The translations under genes were made by a program, and so were the position numbers. From positions 1 through 23,731 of IMG/VR virus record IMGVR_UViG_3300020578_003265: a stretch of DNA of 23,731 nucleotides; one strand, given 5' to 3'. Source of the stretch: a virus. Positions 11,310 through 17,426 of the stretch are shown piece after piece. The notes under the pieces were generated by a model. It ran no database searches and had not been told where the DNA came from. It saw only the letters and a program-made list of their open reading frames with translations. The stretch's first letter is position 1, and each line of letters starts with the position of its first letter.

Positions 11310-11337
11310 TTGCAACGCAAGCGGCTTGCGCTATTGT
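11310..11337 (+). promoter_or_regulatory. Candidate promoter of the plus-strand cassette
   Basis: TTGCAA (11310-11315), a 16-bp spacer and TATTGT (11332-11337) resemble sigma70 -35 and -10 elements (4/6 matches each). The expected start point falls on or within 1-2 nt of the ATG at 11344, so the transcript would be leaderless. No Shine-Dalgarno sequence precedes that ATG, in agreement. The spacer is occupied by a perfect palindrome listed separately. Confidence 0.45.
11316..11330 (+). promoter_or_regulatory. Palindromic operator-like site within the promoter spacer
   Basis: CGCAAGC-G-GCTTGCG is a perfect inverted repeat with 7-bp arms and a 1-bp centre. It fills the space between the -35 and -10 elements, the classic place for a repressor to block RNA polymerase. 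Which protein binds is unknown. It could also be a chance palindrome. Confidence 0.4.
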
Positions 11338-11343
11338 TTAGCC

Positions 11344-11550
11344 ATGAAAACGAACAACGCAACGCTGGATTCACTGATTAACTGGGTTCGCTACGAAATG
11401 GCGAACGAAACGCCCCGCACGGAAATCGTCAAGATGGTGGCTGAAAGCCTCAAGAAATCCATCGGCGAGAAAATGCCGGAAGATATGTCAATTCGGCTCG
11501 CCGAATACGGCATCACCCAAGCGGAAAAAGAAATCTGCCAACTCCAATGA
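11344..11550 (+). CDS. First gene of inverted cassette, unrecognised (68 aa)
   Basis: The start is the ATG at 11344 (MKTNNATLDSLINWVRYEMA); an in-frame TTG at 11326 lies inside the promoter and is rejected. The protein is small and predicted almost all-helical, with three or four amphipathic helices (LDSLINWVRYEM, RTEIVKMVAESLKKSI, MSIRLAEYGITQAEKEI). There is no membrane segment or signal peptide. Its stop overlaps the next ATG as ATGA (11547-11550). It opposes the surrounding structural operon, so it is probably expressed separately. I cannot name a family. A small helical DNA- or protein-binding factor is possible but speculative. Confidence 0.6.
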   Translation: MKTNNATLDSLINWVRYEMANETPRTEIVKMVAESLKKSIGEKMPEDMSIRLAEYGITQAEKEICQLQ

Positions 11551-11921
11551 GTGACACTGCGAAGCAATACCTCGCCGCAATCGAGCGGCGGGGCAGATGC
11601 CCGCAAAAACAACAAACCAAAAACATGAACACACACACACACACACCCGGCCCTTGGCTGGCAAACGACGACGGCCTGGTCTGGTCGGATCACAACTCGC
11701 TCGGCAAGCAAAACGTCATTGGCGCATTTACTCAGGCGGACGCCGCGCTTATCGCCAGCGCACCGGAATTGCTTGAGCTTTGCAAAACGGTTTTGCGCCG
11801 ACTTGACCAAGAACACGGCGAGCGCATCGCAAAAGGCGAGTCGCGCCCCAGCTTTATCTGCGGAGCCATGCGCGGCGACCTTCGCGCTGCTATCGCCAAG
11901 GCGAAAGGAGGCGCGAAGTGA
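11547..11921 (+). CDS. HTPGPW / ADA.LIA.APELL-type phage protein with extra N-terminus (124 aa)
   Basis: The core from residue 27 (MNTHTHTPGPWLAN) to ADAALIASAPELLELCKTVL (about 64-83) matches a widespread small phage protein type that starts near 'HTPGPW' and contains 'ADA.LI..APELL..L'; its function is unknown. The upstream ATG at 11547 overlaps the preceding stop (ATGA) and adds ~26 residues, SDTAKQYLAAIERRGR..., which resemble the start of the next gene. An internal ATG at 11625 would give the usual short form. An (AC)9 run encodes THTHT right after that internal start. The stop overlaps the next GTG (11918-11921). Confidence 0.65.
   Translation: MSDTAKQYLAAIERRGRCPQKQQTKNMNTHTHTPGPWLANDDGLVWSDHNSLGKQNVIGAFTQADAALIASAPELLELCKTVLRRLDQEHGERIAKGESRPSFICGAMRGDLRAAIAKAKGGAK
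11629..11646 (+). repeat. (AC)9 dinucleotide repeat in a coding region
   Basis: Nine AC units run just after the internal ATG at 11625 and encode alternating Thr and His. A dinucleotide run inside a gene can slip by 2 bp and shift the frame. Confidence 0.85.
11904..11911 (+). promoter_or_regulatory. Strong Shine-Dalgarno site for the third cassette gene
   Basis: AAAGGAGG lies 6 nt before the GTG at 11918, near-perfect complementarity to the 16S rRNA end. It decides the GTG as the start. It is one of only two strong ribosome-binding sites noticed in the window. Confidence 0.75.
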
Positions 11922-12112
11922 ATTCGCTGGTTAAACAATATCTTGCGTTCATCGGCGCACGTGGCGGCAAGGCCGGGACGGGCAAGGCCAAGGCCAGGAC
12001 AAGCGAACAAGCTCGCAAGGCCGCGCTCGCGGGCGTGGCCAAGCGGCGGGCTAAGGCGCAGGCTTTAGCTCATAATCCTTCGCCGCCGTCGGCAGAATCG
12101 CGCCCCGGCTGA
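11918..12112 (+). CDS. Small basic KQYLAxI-type protein (64 aa)
   Basis: GTG start at 11918, supported by a strong Shine-Dalgarno site and a GTGA overlap with the preceding stop. The sequence MNSLVKQYLAFIGARGGKAG is followed by a Lys/Arg/Ala-rich helix (SEQARKAALAGVAKRRAKAQ). Small proteins with a 'YLA.IG.RGGKA' start and a basic Ala-rich helix are common in phages and bacterial genomes, without assigned function; nucleic-acid binding is plausible from charge alone. The last 62 bp overlap the 3' end of the large terminase gene on the other strand, a convergent overlap. Confidence 0.6.
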   Translation: MNSLVKQYLAFIGARGGKAGTGKAKARTSEQARKAALAGVAKRRAKAQALAHNPSPPSAESRPG

Positions 12113-13892
12113 ACGCGCTGGCATCCATCGCCACTAGTGCCATCAGCAAGCAGTCGCCGTAGTGATTGTTGCCCGAGTCGCGCCAACGCCAGACGGTGTT
12201 GCCCCGGCTTCCCTTTTCAGGTTCGCGCCGTTCGTCTTGGATCTCTGCTATAAAGTCGCTGCCCACGTCGGCGGGCAGTTCAAAAAGCGGCCCCTTGCCT
12301 TTGAGTGCGAACAGGTAAAGCCGCCCCTTGTAGCTTTCGTTTGACCACTCAATTCTGGTCACGCCTTTTGTGGCTGCGCCCTTTGTGCCGATAAACGGAT
12401 CAACCGAACTTACCCGAAACGGGCGGTGTACGATTCGTTTGCTTGCGTTCTTGTGAGCAAAACCGTCCTGTGCGCTGCCGCGCATAGCCAGCCAGTTCCA
12501 ACGCACGCACTCGCGGAGGATTTCGGTCTGCCGGTTGCCGTCGGCAGAGTCGATGAACACGCCGCGATTGGCGACTCCTTTGGCCGTTTGCAAGGCGCGG
12601 AGGTCGTCAAAGTGCGATAGCCGCCCGTAGTCCACAACGCGAAGCTCGCCGCCCTCGCGCAGTTGGCAGAGGGTGAACCGCAAGTGATCTTTTTGCACGT
12701 CCACGGTGACAATGCGCGTGACCCGTCGCTGGTCGTTTGCTGGCCAAAATTCGCCGCGATTGTATTTGCCACAGAGTCTGCGGATTTCGTTCTCGTCCGC
12801 CACGTCGCCAATGAGCAGCCACGGTTCGCCAAGGGTTTCGCGCACGAAGCTTTTAAGCGGCTCCATCTCGCCGGATTCGGCGCGTTCTTTCGCTGCGAGG
12901 AATTCGCACACGATGTCGTCCCACTTGACCCAAAGGGAATACGCGGCCCACCAGTGGAAAGACTGGACGCCTGGCTCTGGCGTCGGGTTGCGATCATAAC
13001 GCTCCAGGGTTTGCAGCAGCTTGAATTGCTCACTCTGGTAAATGTTTGCTTCGCACGACTCGCACTGATAGCGCAAGGTCTTTCTAAGCTCGGCCCAGTT
13101 CCAACGCCCGCTCGGGCGCGTGGTGTCGTTAGTGTCCCACACCAGCCCGCCCTTGTCTCTGGCTTCGGGAAAAACCACCGACTTCTCGCGGCCAAAGCGA
13201 AACGGCTGGCGGTGTCCACAGTGCGGGCAAGCCCAGTGAAAAAATGTCTGCGTGCCTTGTTCCCATTGCGCGTGAACGGTTTCGCCTGCGTTCATCGGCG
13301 TCGATATAACAACGGTCTTTGAGTGGCTGTATGATCGAACGCGCTTGCCGACCTTCTCAAAGCTGGACGGAGGCCAATCGCTAACTTCGTCGCAAACCAG
13401 CCAGCGCACGGGCGTTGACTTAAGTTTCGAGGGCGAGTTTGCCCCGCGAAAGTAGACTGGCATGGACGTGAACCGGACGAGGTTAAGCGTCTTGCCTGAG
13501 CGTTCGGCGGGCATTCGTGAAGCGACCTCCGGTATTCGCTCCAGCAATGGCATCAACCTCGCTTTTGTGAATTCGTCGCAAGCCTCCTCGCTGGCCATGA
13601 CCCAGAACATCGGCCCAGGAGCTTCGCAGATTGCCCACGCAGCAAAGACCATCAGGGTCTGCGTCTTCCCCGCCTGAGCCGATACCATTAGGACGACTTT
13701 GCGCGTGCGGCGGTCTTGCAACGCATCAAAAACGGGTCGCACCATTGGCGAAACGTCGGTGCGGTATGGCCCCTCGATTTGGGAAAGGCCGGTCAAATCA
13801 ATTTTGGCCTCGGCCCACTGCCACAGCGACAGTTCGGAAGGCGGGGTCAACCAGTCCGCCATCATGCCGTCTAATTTTTCGAGGCCGGTCAT
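12051..13892 (-). CDS. Terminase large subunit, GpA family
   Basis: This 613-residue ATPase/nuclease cuts and packages DNA. Visible motifs: adenine-binding 'FDALQDRRTRKVVLMVSAQ' region, Walker A SAQAGKT (71-77), Walker B WLVCDEV with Asp168-Glu169, and STPM (197-200). It has two Cys pairs, CPHC (222-225) and CESC (277-280), as seen in many GpA terminases, and nuclease acidic residues in TVDVQ (Asp398) and VFIDSADG (Asp448), then 'NNHYGDCLLMALVAMDAS' near the C-terminus. Length is close to lambda gpA (641). The ATG overlaps the small subunit stop by 4 bp. Family membership suggests cos-type or related cleavage. Confidence 0.92.
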   Translation of the reverse strand: MTGLEKLDGMMADWLTPPSELSLWQWAEAKIDLTGLSQIEGPYRTDVSPMVRPVFDALQDRRTRKVVLMVSAQAGKTQTLMVFAAWAICEAPGPMFWVMASEEACDEFTKARLMPLLERIPEVASRMPAERSGKTLNLVRFTSMPVYFRGANSPSKLKSTPVRWLVCDEVSDWPPSSFEKVGKRVRSYSHSKTVVISTPMNAGETVHAQWEQGTQTFFHWACPHCGHRQPFRFGREKSVVFPEARDKGGLVWDTNDTTRPSGRWNWAELRKTLRYQCESCEANIYQSEQFKLLQTLERYDRNPTPEPGVQSFHWWAAYSLWVKWDDIVCEFLAAKERAESGEMEPLKSFVRETLGEPWLLIGDVADENEIRRLCGKYNRGEFWPANDQRRVTRIVTVDVQKDHLRFTLCQLREGGELRVVDYGRLSHFDDLRALQTAKGVANRGVFIDSADGNRQTEILRECVRWNWLAMRGSAQDGFAHKNASKRIVHRPFRVSSVDPFIGTKGAATKGVTRIEWSNESYKGRLYLFALKGKGPLFELPADVGSDFIAEIQDERREPEKGSRGNTVWRWRDSGNNHYGDCLLMALVAMDASAFSRGAILPTAAKDYELKPAP

Positions 13893-14404
13893 TTCGGTTT
13901 GGGAACGTGTGGCATACGCGAAATCTCCTTGAGCATCGCCCGCAGCCCGTCGTTGACCCGCCCCGCTACGAAGTCGCCCGGCTGGTTGTGGCAGATGGAC
14001 GCCAGCCCGTCGCCAAAGTTGGCAAGCCTCGCGGTAAAGGCGGTCAGCACCGAGCCCATCGTTGCCGAGATGGTGTCCACGTCAATCAGCTTGCCCTCCT
14101 TTTCGTCGGCTTCCATCTCGGCCAGCCGGGCCAGCCGTGCTTTGGCTTCGCGTTCGCGGAGCTTGGCGGCTTCTAGCGTGCCGCTGACTTTTTTTGCCCG
14201 TAACGACTCGACGTAACCGCGCACGCTGTCTGGCATGGGCCAAAATCCGTGCCGAGTTCCGCGCTTGATCACGCCAGCGTCGGCAAGCCTTGAAATTGCG
14301 CGAGGAGATAAACCCAGCATCGCGGCCAAATCGTTGGTTCCTATCTCGTTGACAGGCATGGACATGGGTTTCTTGATCATGTTAGGGCCACATTCGGCGC
14401 GCAT
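13889..14404 (-). CDS. Terminase small subunit, Nu1-like
   Basis: A 171-residue protein with an N-terminal helix-turn-helix (NDLAAMLGLSPRAISRLADAG, about 24-44) followed by a winged-type segment, then a long charged helix (LEAAKLREREAKARLARLAEM) and the 'EGKLIDVDTISATMGSVLTAF' motif typical of Nu1-type small terminases. It recognises the packaging site and recruits the large subunit. The start at 14404 lies 2 bp after the previous stop. In-frame ATGs at 14380 and further on would give slightly shorter proteins that still keep the HTH, so the exact start is uncertain. It overlaps the large subunit by 4 bp. Confidence 0.85.
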   Translation of the reverse strand: MRAECGPNMIKKPMSMPVNEIGTNDLAAMLGLSPRAISRLADAGVIKRGTRHGFWPMPDSVRGYVESLRAKKVSGTLEAAKLREREAKARLARLAEMEADEKEGKLIDVDTISATMGSVLTAFTARLANFGDGLASICHNQPGDFVAGRVNDGLRAMLKEISRMPHVPKPK

Positions 14405-14406
14405 CG

Positions 14407-14736
14407 TTACCCATTGGTAGTTCTAGGCATAAATAGATTTCCTACCGGGGGTGGTGATGATGCAAAGTCGGCAGAGACGGAGACGCCATCAACGGTTTTG
14501 CAGGAGACTTTGTATTCGGCGTCGTCAACCCAACCATCTGCGCCAAATACAATCTTAGCCCTGGCTAGATCGTACACGTGAACCGATGGCAAACCCTCGG
14601 TCAATGATGCGTGAGGGCAGACCATTTCAAACGGCTCACACCTGTCTTGGATAAAACAAGCCAGCAAATCTTGTGCGGCAATTATTTCGCGGCAACTAAC
14701 CAAGGCGTGTTCGTGTTTTCTGTTTTTTTTGTTCAT
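14407..14736 (-). CDS. First gene of the packaging operon, unrecognised (109 aa)
   Basis: The frame begins MNKKNRKHEHALVSCREIIA at 14736. It opens the packaging/morphogenesis operon right beside the non-coding control region and ends 2 bp before the small terminase. Lysine-rich N-terminus, helical middle (EIIAAQDLLACFIQDRCEP), then mixed beta (ARAKIVFGADGWVDDAEYKVSC). Four Cys occur without a clear metal-binding spacing. No homologue recognised and no Shine-Dalgarno sequence. The place next to terminase could mean a packaging or HNH-like accessory role, but no HNH motif is present. Existence is supported by length, spacing and coding-like composition. Confidence 0.5.
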   Translation of the reverse strand: MNKKNRKHEHALVSCREIIAAQDLLACFIQDRCEPFEMVCPHASLTEGLPSVHVYDLARAKIVFGADGWVDDAEYKVSCKTVDGVSVSADFASSPPPVGNLFMPRTTNG

Positions 14737-14747
14737 AGATAGATGGC

Positions 14748-14823
14748 GCGATACGTTCCCCGCCTACCGCACCAAGGGGGTGGGTGAGGTGGGTGGGGTG
14801 GTTGCAGGGTGGTGCGATACATT
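14748..14823 (+). repeat. Direct repeats GCGATAC[G/A]TT
   Basis: Two 10-mers, GCGATACGTT at 14748-14757 and GCGATACATT at 14814-14823, 66 bp apart, flank the G-rich segment. They could be binding sites for an initiator or the small terminase. Two copies are too few to be certain. Confidence 0.45.
14776..14798 (+). other. Putative G-quadruplex motif
   Basis: The plus strand has four G runs, G5 (14776-14780), G3 (14782-14784), G3 (14791-14793) and G4 (14795-14798), with loops of 1, 6 and 1 nt. This meets the canonical G3+N1-7 rule. Formation in vivo is untested. Confidence 0.65.
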
Positions 14824-14904
14824 GCGCGGGAGGGGTTGCAGACTGGTTCTTATTTCTCTATTTTATTTTATTTTATTGATACTATGCCAAAGTAGTCTGC
14901 AACC
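14800..14904. repeat. GGTTGCAG boxes, two direct and one inverted
   Basis: GGTTGCAG occurs at 14800-14807 and 14834-14841 on the plus strand, and inverted (CTGCAACC) at 14897-14904. The last two lie inside the arms of the 17-bp inverted repeat. A shared 8-mer in three positions suggests a protein-binding box. Confidence 0.45.
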
Positions 14905-14910
14905 CCTCCC
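14828..14910. repeat. Perfect 17-bp inverted repeat with AT-rich core
   Basis: Left arm GGGAGGGGTTGCAGACT (14828-14844) and right arm AGTCTGCAACCCCTCCC (14894-14910) are exact reverse complements. The 49-bp centre is AT-rich and contains tandem TTTTA-type pentamers (about 14860-14877). There is no U-run after either arm and the loop is long, so it is not an intrinsic terminator. It could be an origin unwinding element, a site for a dimeric or multimeric protein, or a packaging site. Confidence 0.8.
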
Positions 14911-14927
14911 CCTTGTTTTGCACATCG

Positions 14928-15043
14928 ACCCATGCTAACCCATGCTGACCCTGAGCTTTTGCAAGTCGTTGACACTGTATGCTTTGCAAATTTTTTTTGC
15001 GTGCGTTGCTTCATATCTCTTTGATTCCGTGTGGTTTGCAAAT
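14928..15043 (+). repeat. ACCCATGCT tandem repeat and TTTGCAAAT pair
   Basis: ACCCATGCTA (14928-14937) and ACCCATGCTG (14938-14947) are a 10-bp tandem pair followed by a third partial ACC. TTTGCAAAT, itself nearly palindromic, occurs at 14983-14991 and 15035-15043. These add to the density of repeated short words next to the helicase gene end. Confidence 0.5.
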
Positions 15044-15046
15044 CTT

Positions 15047-16396
15047 TTATGGCGGAACAATCTGCCACATCCGTTTGGCGTGCCTAGCCGTGTCAAACCT
15101 CTTAACCCTTGATGATTGCTTGCTGGCAAGTCGGCTCAGGTACACGCCCGCCGCATTGTTCCACGACAGCAGCTTGTCGGCTTGCCGTGAGAACTGAAAG
15201 TCGTTGGAGGTCAACTCCCTTTGCAACTCCTCTGCCGATCCTTCCCATGCTCCCGCTGCTGGCGTAGTAAACAACAAAGCGTCAACGTAAGTCAGCAGTT
15301 GAACCTCTGGGGCCATGCCGTTGATCTCCTCGACCAAGCTAATGTGCTGCCAGGTTTTGACGCCAAACCGGTCTTTGCTTTTGATTTGATCAGGCATCTC
15401 CCATTGGTTGAGCCAGTAGAGATACGCTGGCAACTCCATTGACAGACGACGGCGAAACTCTGCCCGCTGCTCGCCTGTCTCCGCTGGCATCGGCATTTGT
15501 GACCACCGGCACAAGAACAGGCTCACCTTGTCCGCAATCGAATCGTCCAGCGGCGGCAAGGTCATCAGGTTCTCCGGTTCGTCGTTAAGGGAAATTGTGA
15601 CGCGCCAGAACGGTTGCAGGATAATCGCCTCGCGCCCTTTGCCGTGCATCCGCTGGTCTGGGTTGACCGTGATCTCCTTCAATCGACAACCGAAATCCCG
15701 GCGAGCGGCCAGCGTGGTGAGCGGCTGATCGTCTTCCATCATTAGATGTTCGCCGTGGAACAAATCAGAATTGAACGGCGTCATCCCGCTCATGTACTGG
15801 TACGGCCTGCCCTTCCTGCCGCCCAAAATCTCGGTGATGAGTTCTTGCAACAGGCTTTTGCCGCACCCGCGAGGGCCAGCCAGCACAAGTGCCTGCCCCG
15901 GTTGATGCTTGCGCGTGCTTAAGGCAGTGTACGCAACCTTCATCCACCCGTGGAAATAGTCGCGCTGGTCAATTTCTTCGTGCAAAAACAACCCGGCCAG
16001 CAACGAACCAATGAGCGGCCAGTCGCCCGGTGCAGGCTCTATGAGCTTGGGCGGCGTGGTGACAAGTATCCGGTTGCCATTGCAATAGATAATTCCCGGC
16101 CAATAGCCCGCAAGCGGCCCCGCATAAGACACGTAGCTGGTTTCGTTGATCTGGCAAATGCGGCGATCCATGGGCGACAAGGGCGCACCCTCTGGCCGCT
16201 TGGAACTGTAACCATCGAGCGACAACCGCCGGTAAAGCTGCGTCAGGTTGCAGCGCATCCAGCTATCGTCGTTGAAGTAGTAGTAACAATCTTTTTGGGG
16301 ATCGTGGTAGATTTCCCTTGTTATGCCGCCCCCGGCAGCAATTTCGCCGGACATAACGGCAGCGGCTTGGCCCACACGGTTGATAATCTTTGGCAT
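15047..16396 (-). CDS. Superfamily 3 / D5-like replicative helicase
   Basis: This 449-residue ATPase likely unwinds DNA at the phage replication fork. The start is ATG 16396 (MPKIINRVGQAAAV), 1 bp after the primase stop; the longer open frame upstream is a shadow of the primase gene. Walker A is GPRGCGKS (174-181), Walker B HLMMEDD (217-223), and the SF3 motif C-like strand is RVTISLND ending at Asn271. The C-terminal third is a helical/winged region. The N-terminal ~120 residues have no primase catalytic motif and probably mediate contact with the separate Toprim protein. Layout resembles D5/DUF5906-type phage helicases. It ends next to the putative origin region. Confidence 0.8.
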   Translation of the reverse strand: MPKIINRVGQAAAVMSGEIAAGGGITREIYHDPQKDCYYYFNDDSWMRCNLTQLYRRLSLDGYSSKRPEGAPLSPMDRRICQINETSYVSYAGPLAGYWPGIIYCNGNRILVTTPPKLIEPAPGDWPLIGSLLAGLFLHEEIDQRDYFHGWMKVAYTALSTRKHQPGQALVLAGPRGCGKSLLQELITEILGGRKGRPYQYMSGMTPFNSDLFHGEHLMMEDDQPLTTLAARRDFGCRLKEITVNPDQRMHGKGREAIILQPFWRVTISLNDEPENLMTLPPLDDSIADKVSLFLCRWSQMPMPAETGEQRAEFRRRLSMELPAYLYWLNQWEMPDQIKSKDRFGVKTWQHISLVEEINGMAPEVQLLTYVDALLFTTPAAGAWEGSAEELQRELTSNDFQFSRQADKLLSWNNAAGVYLSRLASKQSSRVKRFDTARHAKRMWQIVPP

Positions 16397-16397
16397 A

Positions 16398-17426
16398 TTA
16401 AACAGGCATGATTTTGAAACTTGTGAACGGCCCCATCCGGTTCCACTCGTCCAGGTCTTTAGGCCAAGTGCCGTCGGCTCGTCGGTCATCGGAGAAATCG
16501 GCAATCTTAACGCTGGCGGCAAAAGGTTCCAGTTGCTCGCCCCACTTGGTTGCGCCCTTGAAGCCGGTCTTTTCAGCGTGAGCAAAAATGCAGACCCGTT
16601 TGCCAGCAAACAACGGCAAGGCGGAAGGGTCAATCGACGGCGAGGCAGACAGCATTGCCACGGGCGCACACGATACGTCGGTCTTCGTGTAATGACTGGC
16701 CTGCTCCCACAATATGACTTGGTGAGCCACCAGAAAGTCCGGCAACCCTTCCACCAACGCTATCGCGGGAAATTCTTTGGCCTCTGGCAATCCTAGCGGC
16801 CAGCTTTTTTGACTCCCCTTGACGCTGTGACTTTTGCGCTCAGGCAGCGGCCCCATTTTGGGAAACTTCTCGTTGTCAACCCGCCGAACCTCTAGCACCC
16901 GCCCGCTGGCGTCGGTTACGCCGTAGCACTTCCAATCTCGCCAGCGACCCGTCACCAAGACACCCCGGCTTGCGGCCCACCTTAAACCCTCAATGCCGCC
17001 GATCTCTCGGTAGAACAGAATCTCTTGCAAATCCTTTTGCGAAGCTGCGCTAAAGCCTTCCAGCGAGGGCGGATGCCTTTCCACTGGCGGCGACGGCTTG
17101 TACTCAACGACAGGAGCAACCGGGCGCGGCAGGATTATTTCGTTGCCCTTGTGTAACAAGTTGCCGCGCTCACCCGGCCACTTGGCCACCGTCTCCAGCA
17201 ATCGCAGCAACTCCTTCTCCTGCCACGGCGGAACGCACGTTGCATTCCACTGGCGAAAGACTCCCAAGGCAACTTGTGGCTCTAGGTCAAAACCCATAAC
17301 AACCGCTTTAGCCAGTCGCGCCGTCGTGCCGTTGCCATCCTGACCTTGAATCGCAGGCCCGCACTTGGCGAGATAGCTTGCCGCTTGATCCGCCGCCGTG
17401 CGTTCGGTTGTGCGTATGAGTTTCAT
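16398..17426 (-). CDS. Toprim-domain primase-like protein
   Basis: A 342-residue protein that overlaps the upstream methyltransferase by 4 bp and is followed by the SF3 helicase, giving a two-gene primase-helicase pair. Residues ~17-80 (YLAKCGPAIQGQDG ... RQWNATCVPPWQEKEL) resemble the helical PriCT-type module that accompanies phage and plasmid primases. The Toprim core starts at IALVEGLPDFL with Glu226. The second motif reads IFAHAEKTG (280-288), so the usual D-x-D is H-A-E. It ends with DLDEW (324-328), often seen as 'DLND' in relatives. No CHC2-type zinc finger is present. Primer synthesis is inferred. Confidence 0.7.
   Translation of the reverse strand: MKLIRTTERTAADQAASYLAKCGPAIQGQDGNGTTARLAKAVVMGFDLEPQVALGVFRQWNATCVPPWQEKELLRLLETVAKWPGERGNLLHKGNEIILPRPVAPVVEYKPSPPVERHPPSLEGFSAASQKDLQEILFYREIGGIEGLRWAASRGVLVTGRWRDWKCYGVTDASGRVLEVRRVDNEKFPKMGPLPERKSHSVKGSQKSWPLGLPEAKEFPAIALVEGLPDFLVAHQVILWEQASHYTKTDVSCAPVAMLSASPSIDPSALPLFAGKRVCIFAHAEKTGFKGATKWGEQLEPFAASVKIADFSDDRRADGTWPKDLDEWNRMGPFTSFKIMPV

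Follow-up and report, generated by a model that had tools for sequence, protein, structure and literature searches.

A perfect inverted repeat with a low-stability core, located 3' of an SF3 helicase gene: a putative phage replication origin close to the cos site

The window analysed here is a stretch of viral DNA of 23,731 nt, corresponding to the entire IMG/VR record IMGVR_UViG_3300020578_003265. Coding is on the - strand, apart from three overlapping ORFs of 74, 124 and 64 aa (11326–12112, + strand) located between a portal-side gene and the large terminase gene. At one end of the record a tail-fibre-like gene (3–1457, - strand) carries tandem IYTSTDSGVTWTAR repeats. The window has only one large non-coding gap, which spans 310 bp (14737–15046), the second largest measuring 100 bp. 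This gap is located 3' of a gene that, at the level of the predicted fold, encodes an SF3 helicase (15047–16396, - strand; probable start ATG 16396, 449 aa), which is itself preceded by a further gene (16398–17426, - strand). On the other side of the gap we found an ORF of 109 aa (14407–14736, - strand; 54% identical homologues in two relatives), followed by the small terminase gene (TerS, 13889–14380, - strand) and the large terminase gene (TerL, 12051–13892, - strand). A sequence-only reading of this locus had described an inverted repeat in the gap, between an SF3 helicase and the terminase, and had put forward two interpretations, a replication origin and a cos/packaging site. The description as the sole large gap was confirmed and both gene identities held up, SF3 by fold and the terminase by matches of TerS to phrog_57 and of TerL to a GpA-type profile. 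The repeat does not directly adjoin the terminase genes, however, since the 109-aa ORF and the cos site intervene.

The arms of the repeat, given here on the + strand, are located at 14828–14844 (left, GGGAGGGGTTGCAGACT) and 14894–14910 (right, AGTCTGCAACCCCTCCC). In agreement with the earlier description they are exact reverse complements at 17 of 17 positions and enclose a core of 49 nt (14845–14893) with an A+T content of 78%. At spacings of up to 300 nt this is the longest perfect inverted repeat in the window; the runners-up have arms of 11 bp. We calculated that about 6e-4 repeats with arms of at least 17 bp and a spacer of up to 300 nt are expected by chance in the window, and a chance repeat was therefore rejected. 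In 200 first-order Markov simulations no such repeat occurred, the longest one reaching 16 bp on a single occasion. When the repeat region was folded as single-stranded DNA or as RNA it performed much better than shuffled sequences (z -5.4 and -4.8). A nearest-neighbour scan, in which relatives were compared as well, identified the core as the least stable duplex of the window, with the minimum for 30 bp of the 23.7 kb at 14851–14880 (5.0 SD) and for 50 bp at 14847–14896. The core is therefore a putative DNA-unwinding element, although a stability minimum alone is weak evidence because non-coding DNA is generally A+T-rich. The GC-skew analysis proposed by the sequence-only reading showed no clear flip at the repeat.

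Size and terminal repeats would also fit the remnant of a small mobile element, similar to a MITE with terminal repeats of 17 bp. We consider such a remnant extremely unlikely: the borders lack a target-site duplication, the window contains no second copy, and 2.9 million viral contigs yielded just two exact single-arm matches. These two contigs, each with one 17-mer arm, could not be linked to the window by tblastn and were taken as chance matches.

Besides the two arms, the gap is rich in shorter repeats. The iteron-like core GGTTGCAG of the left arm is found in a third exact copy outside the inverted repeat (14800–14807, + strand; CTGCAACC on the - strand), and the region 3' of the helicase contains three exact copies of CTGCAACC altogether. 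More TTGCA/TGCAA sites, which are candidate iterons, lie at 14916–15051 and include an imperfect direct repeat of 34 nt (14966–14999 versus 15018–15051, 76%). Within the 310-bp gap TTGCA/TGCAA was counted 10 times compared to an expectation of 1.0, for a motif picked post hoc from the sequence. Within 400 nt 3' of the window helicase, repeats cluster with a z of 7.1, a value attained by none of 200 shuffles. Several short repeats flanking an A+T-rich region, the arrangement by which iteron origins are recognised, are present in the gap. We also noticed the sole G-quadruplex-type motif of the window (GGGGGTGGGTGAGGTGGGTGGGG, 14776–14798, + strand), located between the repeat and the 109-aa ORF, where the - strand is C-rich.

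Near the right arm, and adjoined by TTTGCAAA repeats, lies the only DnaA-box-like site (TTWTNCACA) of the window (TTTTGCACA, 14916–14924, + strand). By our own estimate about 0.02 such sites are expected by chance in the gap. The site is a weak lead towards an origin with another initiator, in which host DnaA or a different phage protein would bind the gap and the helicase would be loaded later. We regard this variant as improbable, as the match to the DnaA box is a relaxed one and the corresponding region of the relatives contains no such site. Furthermore, SF3 helicases commonly bind their own origins, as is the case for P4 alpha, AAV Rep and papillomavirus E1.

The repeat is positioned 136 bp 3' of the helicase stop codon and would form a stem of 17 bp with a loop of 49 nt, which raises the question of a function in the transcript. 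An intrinsic terminator was rejected. The loop is long, the - strand has no T-run, and a scan for sigma-70 promoters and terminators found nothing. The sequence-only reading had likewise dismissed a terminator, which is reasonable given the loop and the transcribed strand. Its statement that the arms are not followed by a T-run applies to the coding (-) strand, but not to the + strand, where a weak run (CCTTGTTTT) follows the right arm. The chief rival to the origin reading is a different RNA element in the - strand transcript, i.e. a hairpin protecting the 3' end of the helicase mRNA, a cleavage site for RNase III, or a component of a Rho-dependent terminator that makes use of the C-rich stretch at 14776–14807. 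The stem itself would suit such an element, the - strand RNA of the gap is better folded than shuffled RNA (z -3.8 from 100 shuffles), and the RNA downstream is C-rich and G-poor, like many Rho sites. Against this stand the loop length and the lack of a T-run and of an intrinsic terminator, the failure to obtain a match in Rfam, and the mixed direct and inverted DNA repeats of the relatives described below. These are unlike in sequence and spacing and better fit protein binding sites. We therefore judge an RNA element to be unlikely.

For the helicase, a Pfam search with the window protein gave just a sub-threshold match to DUF5906, and all 20 members of the helicase family alignment match DUF5906. 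SF3 proteins were on top among the fold matches of the predicted structure (pLDDT 80), with NrS-1 at Z 20, the SaPI5 primase-helicase at Z 15, AAV Rep at Z 12 and papilloma E1 at Z 11; poxvirus D5 was found as well. The P4 origin-binding domain was absent among the fold matches listed. In the whole-protein model the order of helices and strands at residues 398–460 fits a C-terminal winged-helix-like domain, and the structural alignment with NrS-1 extends to residue 461. We propose the helicase as initiator. The gene upstream of it resembles a TOPRIM primase by eye (ALVEGLPDFLVAH...IFAHAE) and gave no family match in Pfam or PHROGs. One relative, L078, has a fused ORF of 691 aa that contains both a primase-like region and the helicase. 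Another locus, L035, shares PIF1 and TOPRIM-like genes with the window, and after the same TOPRIM-like gene (57% identical) an unrelated ATPase takes the place of the SF3 helicase (L035:13279–14901). From the sequence comparison this suggests an exchange of the helicase module.

A search with the whole helicase yielded no close relatives in viral contigs, genomes, plasmids or phages. Relatives were recovered by a core-domain search followed by a two-sequence alignment search, and where a gap follows the helicase in these relatives, it is usually packed with short repeats, direct as well as inverted. The repeat score had a median z of 6.8 in the gaps 3' of the helicase (n=10, window included), compared to 0.1 in 36 gaps elsewhere in these loci (p=1e-5), and long inverted repeats 3' of the helicase exceeded shuffles when the relatives were combined (Fisher p=5e-6, window left out). 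The p-values overstate independence, as several relatives are closely related to one another. The stability minimum of a locus, measured over 30 bp, is located 3' of the helicase in 8 of the 13 loci, a count that includes the window. The repeats themselves differ: we found iteron-like GGGTGAGGGT repeats in L085, L099, L100 and L111, GGGGGTGGGG repeats in L102, TGACGC repeats in L088, L089 and L096, GCGTAGGC and TTGACGC repeats in L078, and ATGACGGT repeats with arms of 20 bp in L112. In five relatives (L084, L088, L089, L096, L115) the order helicase, gap, GpA-type TerL is kept, with TerL located 1.1–3.5 kb further on. In one large group of relatives (L086–L114) the repeats are followed by non-coding DNA, a few hundred bp long, in which certain words (e.g. 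TCTATGTCGGTTTGGAAAATGGCCTAGGTATT) are conserved.

The pattern is not uniform. Some helicase relatives (e.g. L088, L099, L115) have no long inverted repeat with a spacer of 20–130 nt, and L084 and L115 show weak clustering of repeats. Loci with a gene directly after the helicase showed no clustering in the next 400 nt; in several of them repeats can be seen by eye beyond that gene. Exact conservation of the arms was seen in no relative found, the terminase relatives carrying other replication genes and the helicase relatives being 33–42% identical overall. Among the latter, as judged from their sequences, the type of element is conserved and its sequence is not, as for initiator-origin pairs that change together.

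The position of the genome ends was derived from relatives found via the large terminase (68–98% identity). Ten of them (L003, L004, L009, L010, L013, L014, L015, L016, L018, L019) have contig starts homologous to position 14411 of the window, reading GGTAACG or GGTTNNN, and L020 starts one base later. The contig G001 (32,309 bp; L025 and L003, IMGVR_UViG_3300020183_000288), which is classed as linear, carries the identical 12 bp GGTAACGATGTG at both ends. This is expected from filled-in cohesive ends of 12 nt, similar to lambda, and G001 is probably a complete cos genome. The shared contig starts together with the identical ends of G001 place cosN at 14400–14411 (GGTAACGATGCG, - strand). The window runs through the cos junction, which suggests that joined or concatemeric molecules went into its assembly. 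Taken at its longest, the small-terminase ORF would begin at 14404, inside cosN, and ATG 14380 is the likelier start. In three relatives (L003:33–1818, also L005 and L010) an extra stretch of about 1.7–1.9 kb, ParB-like by eye, is present between cos and the body of the small terminase; the window does not have it.

A cosQ-like conserved element (CCCGGTAGGAAATCTATTT, 14431–14449, - strand) is found 19 bp before cosN. The corresponding 19-mer pattern CCCGGYAAGGAATCTTTTT matched 21 viral contigs (L117–L136 among the loci). In the downstream direction, 15 of them have a GpA-type TerL at a distance of 0.6–2.5 kb, and G001 and L135 terminate exactly 31 bp past the element. We noticed that many phage contigs with little else in common carry the element ahead of GpA-type terminase genes. 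With its 12-nt cohesive end, upstream cosQ-like element and GpA/Nu1-type terminase genes, the cos site of the window fits the lambda type (cosQ-cosN-cosB), unlike the inverted repeat, which is not included in it and lies 417 bp off. A cos site at the repeat, the second proposal of the sequence-only reading, was therefore rejected. Genome ends mapping elsewhere were among the findings that this reading itself had named as speaking against it. Both the inverted repeat and the replication half of the window are missing from the terminase relatives examined.

The repeat might still belong to a more extended cos/packaging region, e.g. as additional binding sites for the small terminase, whose gene is next door; it is located within 420 bp of cosN, on the cosQ side. 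We consider this very unlikely. The TerS sites of lambda (cosB) lie across cosN from the side of the repeat, and G001 and G003 have a cos site without such a repeat. In addition, cosN and the cosQ-like element have already been placed at 14400–14449, and a lambda-type cos extends over just about 200 bp (PMC4669245).

The closest known system is the mapped origin of the Sulfolobus plasmid pRN1. Here a stem-loop of about 100 bp, with a stem of 21 nt and a loop of 58 nt, is located 3' of the primase/SF3-helicase gene orf904 (PMC4234260, PMC3869888). Two groups have shown that it is required for replication, while its sufficiency together with the replication operon and the importance of stem symmetry come from one group (PMC4234260, PMC3869888). 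Like pRN1, the window has a large stem-loop shortly 3' of an SF3 helicase gene, and with 17 nt and 49 nt the sizes of stem and loop are comparable. The pRN1 helicase has a C-terminal winged helix, with which the order of helices and strands in the window protein would be compatible. A loop of about 50–60 nt located 3' of a replication gene, which characterises this kind of element, is found in the window as well. The two differ in that the primase of pRN1 is a fused archaeo-eukaryotic one and iterons are lacking there, whereas the window has repeats around the stem and a separate, seemingly TOPRIM-like gene upstream. Moreover, pRN1 is a plasmid with a genetically mapped origin, whereas the window represents a phage known here from sequence alone.

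A similar arrangement is present in Bordetella phage BPP-1, in which we found a perfect inverted repeat of 22 bp with a 60-nt spacer between the primase-helicase and the TerS/TerL genes. The order is primase-helicase, a small opposite-strand gene, the repeat, an endonuclease gene, TerS and TerL. For BIP-1, an origin has been proposed at a large stem-loop located 3' of the replication protein (PMC4234260), and this stem-loop may differ from the BPP-1 repeat found here. The primase of BPP-1/BIP-1 differs from that of the window, and profile comparison detected no sequence relation between the BPP-1 and window helicases. In Gram-negative PICIs two sets of iterons flank an A+T-rich region beside pri-rep (PMC6092414). 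The window resembles P4 alpha/ori and the pri-rep-ori of PICIs and SaPIs in that a helicase-type initiator is accompanied by iterons on either side of an A+T-rich melting region (PMC6092414), all of these being predicted in our case, and the SaPI5 primase-helicase is a top-ranking fold match of the window helicase. However, these origins consist of arrays of short iterons, whereas the window has one long perfect inverted repeat, and the sequences differ.

We consider it likely that the repeat is the core of a phage replication origin of the SF3-helicase stem-loop/iteron kind, in which the initiator would bind the arms and the nearby TTGCA repeats, and the core would be the stretch that melts. 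This interpretation is favoured because the repeat exceeds chance and coincides with the stability minimum, the neighbouring gene has the SF3 helicase fold, comparable elements recur in relatives, and BPP-1 and pRN1 provide a parallel and a precedent. The origin half of the sequence-only reading is thus backed by the repeat clusters and easily melted DNA 3' of homologous SF3 helicases. In such an origin the SF3 helicase, possibly assisted by the TOPRIM-like protein encoded before it, would recognise the repeats both within and around the two arms, which are oriented towards one another on either side of the A+T-rich core. It would assemble at the repeat and melt the core, or stabilise the core as a stem-loop, and primers would be made on the exposed single strand. 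Once the cohesive ends have joined after infection, the origin, placed at the right end of the genome map, would be separated from the joined cos by about 420 bp.

The locus can be described as a putative origin with an unusually clear layout beside cos, of a kind of element that is already known. A more far-reaching idea, which we regard as doubtful, is that of a hybrid origin, combining a long stem-loop with iterons, within a conserved helicase-origin-cos-terminase block of many environmental phages. Replication and packaging would then start side by side and may be coordinated, and initiator and origin would be swapped as one cassette. The origin interpretation keeps apart two functions that are easily conflated from the raw sequence, as the repeat would be the origin whereas packaging belongs to a site 420 bp from it. 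If correct, it would provide an uncultured phage lineage with an origin that can be tested. It would also give a simple rule for finding origins in phages with such an initiator, namely to search immediately 3' of the SF3 helicase gene, in many cases shortly before cos.
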